DNA from: Citrobacter freundii
GTDB lineage: Bacteria > Pseudomonadota > Gammaproteobacteria > Enterobacterales > Enterobacteriaceae
Reading direction: 5' to 3'
Assembly: GCF_029717145.1 (NCBI RefSeq)
Contig: NZ_CP099222.1
Location: forward strand, 2,480,001-2,544,000
DNA length: 64,000 bases
Part shown: positions 3,943 through 27,850 of the stretch, in pieces
Numbering within the stretch: position 1 is the stretch's first letter
Layout of the letters: each line of letters begins with the position of its first letter
Translations under genes and position numbers: made by a program
Notes under the pieces: generated by a model
Seen by the model: the letters and a program-made list of their open reading frames with translations, nothing else
Database searches by the model: none
What the model was told of the DNA's origin: nothing

Positions 3943-3969
3943 GTGGCATGTTTAGCTAAACATGCCCAC
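3943..3969. promoter_or_regulatory. Long palindrome between ydbH and the beta-lactamase
   Basis: CATGTTTAG (3947-3955) is followed at once by its reverse complement CTAAACATG (3956-3964), with GTGG on the left and CCCAC on the right extending the symmetry with one unpaired base. It lies 54 bases upstream of ydbH and about 100 bases upstream of the beta-lactamase start. It has no T-run, so it looks more like an operator or recombination feature than a terminator. Its right edge overlaps the left copy of the direct repeat at 3963. Confidence 0.45.
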
Positions 3970-3984
3970 CTTAAGAATAGATGC
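3963..3984 (+). repeat. Imperfect direct repeat, left copy (beta-lactamase insert)
   Basis: TGCCCACCTTAAGAATAGAT plus GC matches 5790-5811 at 20 of 22 positions in the same orientation. The two copies bracket a 1.8 kb segment that holds the beta-lactamase and a small unknown ORF and is not part of the E. coli ydbH-ldhA junction. This suggests duplication or recombination at the insertion edges. Confidence 0.55.
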
Positions 3985-4070
3985 CATTGAAATATATGTA
4001 ATATTTATAGCTTGTGAATAATTTAAATAAGTTATCTTTAATCAGAGAGATACCAAGGAAGAATATAACT

Positions 4071-4859
4071 ATGCCCCACTTTCGTCTGGCCCTTATCCCA
4101 TTACTTACCGCATTTTGTCTGCCCGCGTTTGCCCACCCGACAACGCTGAATAAAGTCAAAGAAGCAGAAAGCCAGCTCACCGCACGAGTCGGTTATGCCG
4201 AGCTGGATCTCACCAGCGGCGAGATTCTGGAAAGCTATCGCCTGCAAGAGCGTTTTCCGATGATGAGTACATTTAAGGTTTTACTCTGCGGCGCGGTGCT
4301 CGCACGCGTTGACGCAGGAAAAGAGCGGCTGGATCGTCGCATCCCGTTCAGCCGGCGTGATCTGGTCGAGTACTCGCCGGTTACAGAAAAACACCTGACC
4401 GATGGCATGACCGTCGGCGAATTATGCGATGCCGCCATCACCATGAGCGATAACACGGCGGCGAATCTACTGCTTACGGCCATCGGCGGTCCGCAAGGAT
4501 TAACCGCGTTTCTGCGCACAACCGGCGATCGGGTGACCCGACTCGACCGCTGGGAACCCGAATTGAACGAAGCGCTACCCGGCGATAAACGCGATACGAC
4601 GACACCTGAAAATATGGCGCAAACGTTGCGCCAACTGCTCACCGGAAAAATCTTGACGACGACATCACAGCAGCAACTCACCCACTGGATGGTGACGGAT
4701 AAAGTCGCGGGGCCACTGTTGCGCTCGGTACTTCCGGCAGGCTGGTTTATAGCCGATAAAACAGGTGCCGGGGCACGCGGTTCTCGCGGGATCGTCGCGG
4801 CGTTAGGGCCGGACGGTAAGCCTTCCCGTATCGTGGTGATTTACCTCACCGAAAGCTAG
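4071..4859 (+). CDS. bla: Class A beta-lactamase, TEM-like, truncated by an in-frame TAG
   Basis: A 262-codon reading frame encoding a class A serine penicillinase that by eye agrees with TEM-1 over most of its length. It has an export signal ([20 protein letters not shown], then A), the STFK catalytic motif at 66-69, SDN at 126-128, the omega-loop EPELN with the general base at E162, and KTG at 230-232. C73 and C119 match the TEM disulfide. TAG at 4857-4859 replaces the codon for TEM Gln269 (Ambler); without it the frame runs 24 more codons to TAA at 4929. The C-terminal helix is therefore lost, and the product is probably unstable or inactive. The leader AAGGAAGA aligns with the Tn3 leader, but the codon at the TEM start position is ATA (4065), so translation would begin at ATG 4071. 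No ampR-like regulator is adjacent. Confidence 0.88.
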
Positions 4860-4931
4860 GCAACAATGGAGGAGCGAAACAGACAGATTGCGGGGATTGG
4901 GGCGACGCTGATCCAACACTGGGATGAGTAA
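4860..4931 (+). pseudogene. Detached 3' end of the beta-lactamase gene
   Basis: These bases continue the beta-lactamase frame after the TAG and read ATMEERNRQIAGIGATLIQH then WDE and TAA. This corresponds to the C-terminal helix of TEM ([21 protein letters not shown]) with two extra residues. The codons are intact and conserved, which points to a recent single-base CAG-to-TAG change rather than old decay. Read-through by a suppressor tRNA would give a 286-residue protein. Confidence 0.85.
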
Positions 4932-5087
4932 AGTTGCCTCAAGACAACGGTACGTTGTTACGCGTGACAGCGGAAATATAAAAAATCAGGGAATTGAGTT
5001 GAGTCATCTGCAGTGCATCGCGCGGTTCCCCGTTGTTCTGTCTGCTCTTAAGACATCATATTAACGGGGACGCGGAAGCGTTCAGAC

Positions 5088-5300
5088 TCAGTGATGGCGC
5101 AGTTGTCCATCGCTATGTTTAGGTCCGATACGACCTGCTTCTATCAGAATTTCCTCTATGAGCTCTTCGAGGCACGCCTTGCCATGATGATCGCAGACAA
5201 GATGCACCTGCCGGGAAATTTCTTCAGGTTTCATACCATCACATAATGCAGCCTTCAGCATTAAGGTGGCCCAGCGTTTTGCTTCAGAGTGAGTTAACAT
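5088..5300 (-). CDS. Small protein of unknown function in the beta-lactamase insert
   Basis: A 70-residue acidic, helix-rich protein (MLTHSEAKRWATLMLKAALC, later EELIEEILIEAG) with three Cys and several His, and no membrane segment or signal peptide. I do not recognise the family. The start at 5300 has a good ribosome site (GGGAGGGG) a few bases upstream, and the amino-acid mix looks like a real protein. It converges with the beta-lactamase, whose original stop is at 4931. It could be passenger DNA that came in with the beta-lactamase. No function is proposed. Confidence 0.55.
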   Translation of the reverse strand: MLTHSEAKRWATLMLKAALCDGMKPEEISRQVHLVCDHHGKACLEELIEEILIEAGRIGPKHSDGQLRHH

Positions 5301-5914
5301 GACCCCTCCCGATATGTGATACCTGTATAAGCGTAGCTGCCTGAAGGTAATTCACCTGGCTTTTTATCCGCGTTACAGGCTTAACGAACATGGAGGAGAT
5401 CGACGTGTCGGATGCTGTTACGGCACGACAACACCACACAGTTTATTGGACTCGGCGGTGGGGGTACTTAGGCCCCGGCCATGTCACCCTCACACATGAT
5501 CAGCATGAATGGAGCACGGGCAACCAGCGACGGTAATCAAGCATATTGCGAAGCGGTAGAATCAGCAGCGTAAAAAGCCAAACTCCCAACCTTTACCAAT
5601 CCGGAACTATATCGAGAGTTTTAAAATCCGGTTTCAATATGAGTGGCTAACCACATTAAGACTATGAAAAGATGCGCCTCTCGCTCATCATTTCCGAATC
5701 TGCCCAACATACCCAAAGGTAGCAATGCTTAACGGCAGGACGCCCAAAGGAGTACATATACTAAGACGAGTGGTTTAAATCCAGCAATGTGCCCACATTA
5801 AGAAGAGATGCTCTAGAATTATTCATTATATCTATGACTATCAATTGTTTTTTGGATTTTGTAAAATAATTTGAATTGGATTAATGTGATTTCAGAATCA
5901 CTGGAGAAAGTCTT
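5301..5914. other. Gene-free stretch upstream of ldhA
   Basis: No convincing reading frame is present over about 610 bases. The stretch holds the right copy of the direct repeat (5790-5811) and a weaker third relative near 5651-5675 (CCACATTAAG followed by AAAAGATGC). The first part probably carries the promoter of the small ORF at 5088-5300 and the last 100 bases the ldhA promoter. It may be decayed inserted DNA; I cannot name a source. Confidence 0.5.
5790..5811 (+). repeat. Imperfect direct repeat, right copy (beta-lactamase insert)
   Basis: TGCCCACATTAAGAAGAGAT plus GC differs from 3963-3984 at two positions. It lies about 100 bases upstream of ldhA and marks the right edge of the DNA that is extra relative to the E. 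coli junction. Confidence 0.55.
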
Positions 5915-24452: not shown

Positions 24453-24613
24453 AATCCAGGCAATTAATGCCTTATTCATCACACTTCTACATAAAGCAAC
24501 CGCAGATAAAGTGCGGTTAATCAAACAGATACAAACATTCAACTCGCTTATGCCTGAATTATTCTCTCTTAGGGGTAGGTCAGGCTTACGTGCTCACCAA
24601 AAAGATGTTAAAA

Positions 24614-24627
24614 TTGACAAATATCAA
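24614..24627. promoter_or_regulatory. FNR box in the fnr leader (autoregulation)
   Basis: TTGAC-AAAT-ATCAA fits the FNR consensus with one mismatch. It lies 20-33 bases before the fnr start codon. The corresponding site in E. coli overlaps the transcription start and lets FNR repress its own gene. Confidence 0.85.
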
Positions 24628-24646
24628 TTACGGCTTGAGCAGACCT

Positions 24647-25399
24647 ATGATCCCGGAAAAGCGAATTATACGGCGCATTCAGTCTGGCGGTTGTGCTATC
24701 CATTGCCAGGATTGCAGCATCAGCCAGCTTTGCATCCCGTTCACACTTAACGAGCACGAGCTTGACCAGCTCGATAATATCATTGAGCGCAAAAAGCCTA
24801 TCCAAAAGGGGCAGACGCTCTTTAAAGCAGGCGATGAACTTAAATCACTCTATGCTATCCGCTCCGGAACGATTAAAAGCTATACCATTACCGAACAAGG
24901 CGATGAGCAAATTACCGGTTTCCATCTGGCCGGCGATTTAGTCGGTTTTGACGCCATCGGTAGCGGTCATCATCCGAGCTTTGCACAGGCGCTGGAAACC
25001 TCAATGGTCTGTGAAATCCCATTCGAGACCCTGGACGATCTGTCCGGTAAGATGCCGAATCTGCGTCAGCAGATGATGCGTCTGATGAGCGGCGAGATCA
25101 AAGGCGATCAGGACATGATCCTGTTGCTGTCGAAGAAGAACGCAGAAGAACGTTTAGCGGCCTTCATCTACAATTTGTCCCGTCGTTTTGCCCAACGTGG
25201 ATTCTCGCCTCGCGAATTCCGCCTGACCATGACTCGCGGAGATATTGGTAACTATCTCGGCCTCACGGTAGAAACCATCAGTCGTCTGCTGGGTCGATTC
25301 CAGAAAAGCGGCATGCTGGCGGTGAAAGGCAAATATATCACTATCGAGAATAGCGACGCGCTGGCTGTTCTTGCTGGCCATTCGCGCAACGTAGCGTAA
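24647..25399 (+). CDS. fnr: FNR, oxygen-sensing global regulator
   Basis: A 250-residue CRP-family regulator. The [4Fe-4S] cluster is held by C20, C23 and C29 (the motif [10 protein letters not shown]) plus C122 (MVCEIPFE). Oxygen destroys the cluster and the dimer. A cyclic-nucleotide-like fold is followed by a helix-turn-helix with the recognition helix [11 protein letters not shown] near 208-218. ATG 24647 ([16 protein letters not shown]) gives the E. coli length; the frame is open farther upstream to 24590. The leader has an FNR box. It activates anaerobic genes and the fnrS sRNA at 16791-16912. Confidence 0.98.
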
Positions 25400-25437
25400 T
25401 CGTTATTACCCTTCTGTCACATCGCTAAATGTTCCCA

Positions 25438-25476
25438 ATTTAACGATCTGGCAGAAGGTTTTCTTCTGCTCTAATC
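25438..25476 (+). repeat. Imperfect direct repeat, left copy (aph insert), with hairpin
   Basis: This 39-base stretch after fnr matches 26495-26533 at about 30 positions, with an identical core GATCTGGCAG. It contains a perfect 7-bp hairpin, GCAGAAG/CTTCTGC (25451-25469), that could end fnr transcription although the U-run is poor. The two copies bracket the aph gene. Confidence 0.6.
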
Positions 25477-25574
25477 ATCATTCATCGACTCTTTTCCGCT
25501 TTGCCCGTCTGGTATCCGTTTCCGCTTACACCAAGTGCATCCGCTATGAGTCAGTCACAATACAAAGGAATGTT

Positions 25575-26390
25575 ATGAATTATATTCAAAGGGAAAAGCA
25601 GTGCTCAGCTCTGCAATTACATACAAGTCTGGACGCTGACCTGAAGGGCTATCAATGGGCGCGTGATCATGTCGGTCAATCTGGCGCAGCCATTTATCGA
25701 TTGTATAGTAAAGCTGGTGCGCCGGAATTGTACCTGAAGCAAGGTAGAGGGACCGTTGCCGATGATATTACAGATGAAATGATCCGACTTAATTGGCTGA
25801 AGGCTTATTTACCACTTCCGGCTATCAAGCATTTTACCCGCACAGGTGATGACGCGCTGCTACTCACAACAGCGATCCCCGGCAAAACTGCGTTCCAGAT
25901 TTTAGAAGAATACCCTGCTGCACAGAATAGTATTGTTGATGCACTTGCTGTATTCCTGCAGCGGTTACACCAGATCCCTGTAAGCCACTGTCCTTTTAAC
26001 AGCGATCATTTGTTTCGGCTCGCATTGGCGCAAACACGAATGAATAGCGGTCTGGTTGATGCTGATGATTTTGATGATGAGCGCAAGGGGTGGTCTGTTG
26101 AACACGTCTGGAATGAGATGCAGTCCCTTTTACCCTTCTCGCCCGACTCCGTGGTAACGCACGGAGACTTCTCACTGGATAACCTTATTATTAGCCAGGG
26201 TGAAGTGGTGGGTTGTATTGATGTTGGTCGCGTTGGTATCGCCGATCGATACCAGGATCTTGCCATTATCTGGAACTGTCTCGGTGATTTTTCACCGTCT
26301 TTACAGAATAGACTTTTTCATACATATGGCATCGCAACCCCTGATCTGAAAAAGTTGCAGTTTCATTTGATGCTCGATGAGTTTTTTTAA
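25575..26390 (+). CDS. Aminoglycoside 3'-phosphotransferase, APH(3')-I type, chromosomal
   Basis: A 271-residue kinase, the same length as APH(3')-Ia of Tn903 and by eye roughly 70% identical to it. It would transfer phosphate from ATP to the 3'-hydroxyl of kanamycin- and neomycin-type drugs. The ATP lysine lies in YLKQGRG (K55), the catalytic loop is HGDFSLDN (196-203), the metal site is IDVGRVG (215-221), and the C-terminus LMLDEFF is identical. All key residues are present, so activity is likely but untested. AAAGGA lies 5 bases before the ATG. From recall, the bases AATACAA..GG..TGTTATGA around the start resemble the Tn903 gene as well. It lies between fnr and uspE, which adjoin in E. coli, flanked by imperfect repeats. 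Base composition looks lower in GC than its neighbours. Confidence 0.93.
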   Translation: MNYIQREKQCSALQLHTSLDADLKGYQWARDHVGQSGAAIYRLYSKAGAPELYLKQGRGTVADDITDEMIRLNWLKAYLPLPAIKHFTRTGDDALLLTTAIPGKTAFQILEEYPAAQNSIVDALAVFLQRLHQIPVSHCPFNSDHLFRLALAQTRMNSGLVDADDFDDERKGWSVEHVWNEMQSLLPFSPDSVVTHGDFSLDNLIISQGEVVGCIDVGRVGIADRYQDLAIIWNCLGDFSPSLQNRLFHTYGIATPDLKKLQFHLMLDEFF

Positions 26391-26494
26391 ATTGACGAGA
26401 AATCTCAACCCGTTCTGGCATCAAAGGGTTACAACGGCTAAGAACAGTTGCTCTCATTTCGTGGGATACGGACAAAAAAACCGGGATTCTCCCG

Positions 26495-26533
26495 ATTTAT
26501 TGATCTGGCAGGAGGTTCTCCCCTGTTTCAATC
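26495..26533 (+). repeat. Imperfect direct repeat, right copy (aph insert)
   Basis: Matches 25438-25476 at about 30 of 39 positions in the same orientation. It lies 60 bases before the uspE start. The inner hairpin is weaker than in the left copy (CAGG/CCTG). Confidence 0.6.
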
Positions 26534-26593
26534 CACATTATTGGGTTACTCTTTTAATGACAAACTGCGGTGACAGTTGTAAGGAGACCCTGT

Positions 26594-27541
26594 ATGGCTA
26601 TGTATCAAAACATGCTGGTGGTCATCGATCCGAACCAGGACGATCAACCTGCATTACGGCGAGCTGTTTATTTGCATCAACGGATTGGTGGCAAAATTAA
26701 AGCCTTTTTGCCGATCTATGACTTTTCCTATGAGATGACTACCCTGTTGTCGCCCGATGAGCGGACGGCAATGCGTCAAGGCGTTATCAGTCAGCGAACG
26801 GCATGGATACGCGAGCAAGCGAAATACTATATTGATGCAGGTATTCCTCTTGATATTAAAGTGGTCTGGCACAACCGTCCCTTCGAAGCCATCATCCAGG
26901 AAGTCATCAGTGCTAAGCATGACCTGGTTCTTAAAATGGCGCACCAGCACGACCGCCTGGAGGCGGTGATTTTCACCCCAACCGACTGGCATTTATTACG
27001 TAAATGCCCAAGTCCGGTGTGGATGGTCAAAGACCAACCATGGCCGGAAGGCGGGAAGGCGCTGGTTGCCGTCAACCTGGCCAGCGAAGAAGCGTATCAC
27101 AACGCGCTTAACGAAAAGCTGGTCAAAGAAACGCTGATGCTCGCAGATCAGGTTAACCATACCGAAGTACATTTGGTGGGGGCTTACCCTGTTACCCCAA
27201 TCAACATCGCCATTGAACTGCCTGAGTTTGACCCTAGCGTTTATAACGACGCGATTCGCGGACAGCACCTGCTGGCCATGAAGGCATTGCGTCAGAAATT
27301 CAGCATCGATGAGAAAGTCACGCACGTTGAAAAAGGGTTGCCTGAAGAGGTCATTCCTGATTTAGCAGAGCATTTACAGGCGGGTATCGTAGTACTGGGT
27401 ACCGTCGGGCGCACCGGCATTTCTGCCGCATTCCTTGGCAATACGGCGGAACAGGTCATCGACCATCTACGCTGCGATCTGCTGGTCATTAAGCCCGATC
27501 AGTATCAGACGCCGGTTGAACTGGACGACGAAGACGATTGA
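26594..27541 (+). CDS. uspE: Universal stress protein UspE
   Basis: A 315-residue protein of two tandem Usp domains (about 1-150 and 155-305); the second ends with the nucleotide-binding run [20 protein letters not shown]. It matches E. coli UspE, which promotes cell aggregation and stress survival. AAGGAG at 26581-26586 sits 7 bases before ATG 26594. In E. coli uspE directly follows fnr; here the aph gene intervenes. Confidence 0.96.
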
Positions 27542-27554
27542 TCACGCAGCAACC

Positions 27555-27579
27555 TGCCGGATGACGATGTCATCCGGCA
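27555..27579. repeat. REP unit between uspE and ynaJ
   Basis: TGCCGGATGAC and GTCATCCGGCA form a perfect 11-bp inverted repeat with a three-base loop, the typical REP palindrome, between convergent genes. Confidence 0.85.
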
Positions 27580-27589
27580 TCATAAGCGC

Positions 27590-27850
27590 TTAGTGCTTAT
27601 CCTCTCCGCCAAGGAAATAGATCCCAAGCGGGATTGCCAGCAGAATAGTAAACACCATACTGTAGACGCCAATCATTGCCGATTGGATGGCATACATGGA
27701 AGCCGTCCAGTCAGACAGCGGGATATTGTACTGCTCAATCACCCCACCGATAGTGGCACGCGTCACCACCGATGCGGCGATGATAAACACCCCAAGCAGA
27801 CACAACAGAAATTTTCTTCCCTTAGCTGTCTTCAGCTTAGCCATGATCAT
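27590..27850 (-). CDS. ynaJ: YnaJ, DUF2534 membrane protein
   Basis: An 86-residue inner-membrane protein with two predicted helices (about 14-33 and 54-79). It matches E. coli YnaJ (MIMAKLKTAKG start). Function unknown. ATG 27850 is preferred over farther upstream codons because it gives the E. coli-like N-terminus. It converges with uspE and is divergent from ynaI. Confidence 0.92.
   Translation of the reverse strand: MIMAKLKTAKGRKFLLCLLGVFIIAASVVTRATIGGVIEQYNIPLSDWTASMYAIQSAMIGVYSMVFTILLAIPLGIYFLGGEDKH

Follow-up and report, generated by a model that had tools for sequence, protein, structure and literature searches.

In the window, the 64,000-nucleotide stretch of DNA analysed here, the aminoglycoside resistance gene aph(3')-Ie most likely lies in a phage-type insertion scar at a variable chromosomal slot between fnr and uspE, and a sister copy of the slot gene is already present on hospital plasmids; both observations are new. 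We favor an account, to which we give a probability of roughly 0.77, in which an integrated element brought the gene to this site, the rest of the element was lost, the gene was long inherited in place, and a sister copy passed to conjugative plasmids.

The window gene is probably the described aph(3')-Ie of Citrobacter gillenii

The 271-aa ORF that the first-pass annotation had placed between fnr and uspE stands as drawn (Table 1). Its product is a full-length homolog of APH(3')-Ia, the Tn903 enzyme (PDB 4feu/4ej7), with 74.9% identity over the whole length (75% to the crystal structure 4feu) where roughly 70% had been guessed. The catalytic motifs and the LMLDEFF C-terminus, read earlier as intact, are so in the alignment to 4feu, in which HGDFSLDN and GCIDVGRVGIADRYQDLA are identical. 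The protein scores 466 bits against the NCBIfam model of the APH(3')-I family (NF033059, cut-off 400) and 486.9 bits against the APH(3')-Ia model (NF051474, cut-off 625); because it lies above the first cut-off and below the second, we class it as type I but not Ia. The 4.74-Mb genome carries the gene once, on its main contig.

The proteins of the window region are 99-100% identical to those of Citrobacter gillenii strain UMG736, so the host fits that species. In 2024, aph(3')-Ie was named, cloned and assayed from C. gillenii DW61 (PMC11320999), and the published primers find their counterparts here: the forward cloning primer matches 25457-25485, with one base differing at a position searched as Y, the reverse cloning primer matches 26431-26455, and the gene-specific part of the expression primer equals the first 36 bases of the gene. 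On these primer matches and the shared species, we equate the window gene with APH(3')-Ie (PP596862), which has the same length, is likewise chromosomal and also stands at 74.9% identity to APH(3')-Ia. We accordingly regard it as the natural kanamycin-resistance gene already described from C. gillenii, and not as a new one.

Cloned aph(3')-Ie raises the kanamycin MIC of E. coli DH5alpha from 8 to 512, and kinetics have been published for four substrates (PMC11320999). As others have shown for APH(3')-Ie, the window enzyme would inactivate kanamycin, neomycin, paromomycin and ribostamycin by phosphorylating their 3'-hydroxyl with ATP as the donor. APH(3')-Ie shares its motifs with APH(3')-Ia and overlaps with it in substrates, but its kanamycin turnover is published as about 100-fold lower. 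The authors of PMC11320999 saw the gene in 27 Citrobacter records that share a single context, and they reported no mobile element. The main text of that paper mentions no duplicated core, integrase remnant, variable slot or plasmid ortholog.

Because the published clone, which starts at 25457, gives kanamycin resistance, we infer a promoter in the leader of the gene; expression of that clone may be vector-driven. No sigma-70 consensus promoter was seen in the insert, and Rfam gave no match within 24500-27600.

Table 1. Positions of the features discussed, in the window unless a plasmid record is named
Feature	Position	Strand	Evidence or remark
Second slot of the same kind, ydbH-ldhA	3963..5811	.	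direct repeats 3963-3984 and 5790-5811
blaGIL, class A beta-lactamase gene, TEM-like	4014-4859		between ydbH and ldhA
Integrase-like C-terminal tail, AMLNGRTPKGVHILRRVV*	near 5746-5786		directly before right repeat
fnr, upstream core gene; 3' flank is the attachment site	24590..25399	+	ORF; same neighbor in every aph slot
Left att core copy (attL-like), diverged	25429..25477	+	empty-site profile 25430-25468, E 1.7e-6
Leader within insert, with ribosome-binding motif; promoter inferred	25478..25574	+	primer match 25457-25485; published MICs
aph(3')-Ie, aminoglycoside 3'-phosphotransferase, 271 aa	25575..26390	+	ORF; NCBIfam NF033059; 4feu homology; published as APH(3')-Ie
Insert DNA from aph to right core; putative degenerate phage integrase end and att arm	26391..26485	+	homologous to L009 stretch
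Right att core copy (attR-like)	26486..26532	+	empty-site profile 26486-26532, E 1.6e-16
uspE, downstream core gene	26594..27541	+	ORF; neighbor comparison
IS1 copies bracketing the Citrobacter piece, NZ_AP025860.1	189476-190243; 232634-233401		same orientation

aph(3')-Ie lies between two copies of a prophage attachment core

In a sister genome (G011), a prophage occupies the same slot, and fnr and uspE lie about 58 kb apart. Its integrase, a 428-aa protein with Arm-DNA-bind_2 and Phage_integrase domains, adjoins uspE, and a phage repressor, an O-like replication protein and a methyltransferase are encoded nearby. A 47-bp core, ATTTTCCCGATTTATTGATCTGGCAGGAGGTTCTCCCCTGTTTCAAT, is identical at both ends of this prophage and occurs once in empty sites. 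Using a profile of the empty-site cores, we found that the core is present in duplicate around the window aph, as opposed to the single copy of empty sites. The two copies form a direct repeat of 50 nt, the left copy 76% identical to the right at a spacing of 1057. The earlier statement that no IS903 or other transposon end is visible held in that no IS or transposase gene appears among the ORFs listed for the neighboring 12 kb, but the diverged direct repeats correspond to the prophage ends of the sister genome.

The stretch that separates aph from the right core points to the same kind of element. An integrase-arm profile that was built without any aph slot detected two of them, L009 (E 3e-12) and L092, the plasmid ortholog described below (E 5e-11). 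The window's own stretch gave E 8 and E 1.8, not significant alone, and is homologous to its L009 counterpart (E 2.3e-5), so that the window remnant is linked to the integrase through L009 only. Read in frame, the slots end in ERPKGAQILRKIV*F*RD (L126, the slot that holds an aspartase), RTKGPHMLIKIV*I*RD (L009) and RLRKIV*IERD (L092), which we read as the same predicted integrase C-terminus, including the stop. Since the aph slots retain both core copies, and L009 and L092 clearly retain the 3' end of the integrase as well, we take aph(3')-Ie to sit, most likely, within what is left of an integrase-type element.

At 49% identity to IntR of Rac-SA53, the slot integrase falls near Rac-type prophages with IntR-like integrases; its identity to prophage integrases in IMG/VR is 73%. 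Among these IMG/VR relatives, those with a readable flank adjoin a different, PhoP-like gene, whereas the slot integrase uses the 3' flank of fnr; none of those with a readable flank lies beside uspE. A search of viral contigs returned neither an exact att core or arm nor an APH(3')-I gene. We also noted, on the fnr side of the G011 prophage, a KAP-family P-loop NTPase of 1098 aa (L132, 6718-10011), which is possibly a defence or accessory gene.

Recurrent insertion at the fnr-uspE gap in Citrobacter

Across Citrobacter, the fnr-uspE gap is filled recurrently and with differing cargo, a property newly found here; we found no literature on a prophage at this site in the genus. We checked 17 of 17 Citrobacter uspE loci, about one genome per species. 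The gap is empty, measuring 151-154 bp, in E. coli and in 6 of the 17 Citrobacter genomes, and is occupied or rearranged in 11. Three genomes carry aph in it, and three carry azlCD with a GntR-type regulator or its remnant. The further cargos are unrelated and comprise autotransporters, an acyltransferase/AMP-ligase/SDR operon, an aspartase/PTS operon and the prophage; in one genome the slot shows an inversion-like rearrangement. Except for aph and the prophage, the cargo names were read from the sequences alone. In the L122 locus (G006), fnr and uspE lie about 173 kb apart in opposite orientation, an apparent large rearrangement, and the integrase arm still adjoins uspE.

A second slot of the same kind holds blaGIL

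The gap between ydbH and ldhA measures about 0.2 kb in E. coli and is variable in Citrobacter, at 0.5-1.4 kb or more. In the window it is bounded by direct repeats, their pattern taken from the copies themselves, and contains a beta-lactamase gene and an integrase-like tail (Table 1). C. gillenii is known to encode GIL, a beta-lactamase, on its chromosome (Naas 2007, as cited in PMC13300207); here an in-frame stop ends the gene about 24 codons early and probably truncates the protein of this strain. In Citrobacter sp. wls619 (L039), an aph at 73% identity lies between ydbH and ldhA. Because aph occupies both Citrobacter slots, each in other species, and blaGIL occupies the second one here, phage-type integrase slots might be the route by which aph(3')-I genes, and perhaps further resistance genes of which blaGIL would be one, settled in enterobacterial chromosomes, a generalization that we put forward as doubtful.

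Proposed delivery of aph by the integrated element

In the history that we favor, a phage-type tyrosine recombinase would have inserted an element just 3' of fnr, duplicating the 47-bp core and leaving the end of its integrase gene beside the right core copy, as comparison of the slots indicates. This element would most likely have delivered aph. The integrase and the remainder of the element would then have been lost and aph long inherited in place, and one lineage's copy would later have moved with the surrounding 43 kb to conjugative plasmids, by a route that we reconstruct from the plasmid DNA described below.

Alternatively, aph may have entered an older prophage scar through homologous recombination in fnr and uspE, or through illegitimate recombination, and the integrase would never have carried it. 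Such an entry would fit with our finding no intact element that holds both the slot integrase and aph, with left insert ends that are unlike the left end of the G011 prophage, and with the many unrelated cargos of the slot. It accounts less well for an aph family that occupies two integrase-type slots in Citrobacter, fnr-uspE and ydbH-ldhA (L039), and for inserts in three lineages that hold, from the core to the integrase tail, little besides aph. We consider entry into an old scar possible, if on the whole unlikely, and continue with delivery by the element as the preferred reading.

The window gene appears to be a cousin of the Tn903 gene

The kanamycin-resistance gene of Tn903 is widely used, and we found no settled origin for it in the literature. 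The first-pass annotation had suggested that the window gene is a relative of the Tn903 ancestor. The enterobacterial APH(3')-I genes come out as a single clade (100/98) in a protein tree, in agreement with that suggestion, and the mobile gene falls among several chromosomal members of this small clade. Within the clade, the three Citrobacter slot lineages group together (88/86), but Tn903-type Ia groups, with modest support (85/90), with the gene of G251, a chromosomal APH(3')-I of another Enterobacteriaceae genus. As Ia groups with G251 and the slot genes form their own clade, the window gene would be a cousin of the Tn903 gene and not its parent. In the tree no chromosomal gene lies closer to Tn903-type Ia than that of G251 (L096, 6496-7311), which is possibly a better lead to the Ia ancestor; a search for direct repeats around the G251 gene returned nothing but short chance-like pairs.

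A likeness to the Tn903 leader had also been proposed. The quoted leader, AATACAAAGGAATGTTATGA, is indeed present upstream of the window aph, but the likeness covers no more than about 15 bp around the ribosome-binding site; when the window leader was shuffled 500 times, 158 of the shuffled versions aligned to the Tn903 leader with at least the observed score. We rejected leader homology past the ribosome-binding site, as the window does not rise above its shuffles. The same short leader motif precedes other enterobacterial aph copies.

It is very unlikely that C. gillenii or its close kin was the source of mobile aph(3')-Ia, as direct sister of the Tn903 ancestor. The common clade, the ribosome-binding motif found in both and a similar G+C of about 44-47% are compatible with such a source, but the identity of the window protein to APH(3')-Ia is only 75%, G251 (75-76%) and L009 (76%) are equally close or closer, Ia itself groups with G251, and flanking homology is lacking. 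What the slot does provide is the chromosomal address of one aph group, an address that behaves as an integrase attachment slot; it is a place to look for the missing Tn903 ancestor, and we infer that the slot mechanism bears on Tn903 ancestry.

Beyond the Enterobacteriaceae, many chromosomal-looking APH(3')-I homologs with 54-66% identity (L040-L087) occur in Sphingomonas, Massilia and relatives, which suggests that APH(3')-I is an old environmental family.

aph(3')-Ie as a probable long-resident chromosomal gene

The earlier proposal of a long-resident chromosomal gene is supported by comparison with other genomes. The order fnr-aph-uspE is shared with a second C. gillenii genome, where aph is 99% identical in the same slot, and with Citrobacter sp. 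Res13, whose slot aph is 84% identical to the window protein; in the plasmid-captured piece of Citrobacter DNA the figure is 73%. Two C. gillenii genomes were compared, and wider presence in the species is taken from the published survey (PMC11320999). Identical copies on plasmids had been named beforehand as evidence against residence, and among the best 5000 matching records of 72,556 plasmids searched, no copy exceeded 76% identity.

The synonymous divergence of aph resembles that of its neighbors smrA, ogt, fnr, uspE, DUF2534 and mscS. Between the window and L009, dS is 0.59 for aph vs 0.35-0.64 for the neighbors; between the window and L092, it is 1.28 vs 0.56-1.84. These values are as expected of inheritance alongside the neighbors, and a dN/dS of about 0.14 points to purifying selection. 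Homologous recombination in the flanking genes fnr and uspE could give the same appearance of vertical residence. Collectively, the comparisons support a resident chromosomal APH(3')-I gene, as opposed to a recent mobile copy. We dropped the idea that each aph allele was acquired separately and recently, because aph dS matches that of the neighbors. That the window aph is itself a recently gained mobile gene is hardly credible and, in our grading, already contradicted: its G+C of 46.6% lies under the chromosomal average of about 52.5% in C. gillenii DW61 (PMC11320999), but no transposase gene adjoins it, its dS resembles that of its neighbors, the second C. gillenii genome has the same slot, and the plasmid search gave no close copy among the best records.

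A sister copy of the slot gene is on conjugative plasmids

Orthologs of the slot gene are carried by 56 plasmid records, 55 from Enterobacter and 1 from C. freundii, all typed as conjugative. They are at least 99% identical to one another and 73% identical to the window protein. In the record that we analyzed in detail, the IncHI2A plasmid NZ_AP025860.1 (L094/L095), about 43 kb of Citrobacter chromosome (189476-233401) is enclosed by two IS1 copies in the same orientation (Table 1); no target-site duplication was seen at this piece. Its gene order runs EAL-domain gene, ogt, fnr, aph, uspE, tpx, tyrR, psp genes, qnrB6. The flank of the piece is 99.2% identical to Citrobacter G007, in which the slot is empty and qnrB is 99% identical; at this level of flank identity, then, the slot is occupied on the plasmid and empty in G007.

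The qnrB of the Citrobacter freundii complex is a chromosomal source of a mobile resistance gene with a confirmed origin. Unlike qnrB, aph(3')-Ie itself was not found mobilized; only the ortholog next to qnrB6 was. Plasmids of the IncHI2 type with qnrB6 have been described in Japanese Enterobacter, and the gene list of one such paper does not include this aph. The plasmid ortholog (WP_087878563), a predicted APH(3')-I enzyme, already accompanies qnrB6 in hospital Enterobacter, on conjugative plasmids whose records either name no more than its family or leave it unannotated.
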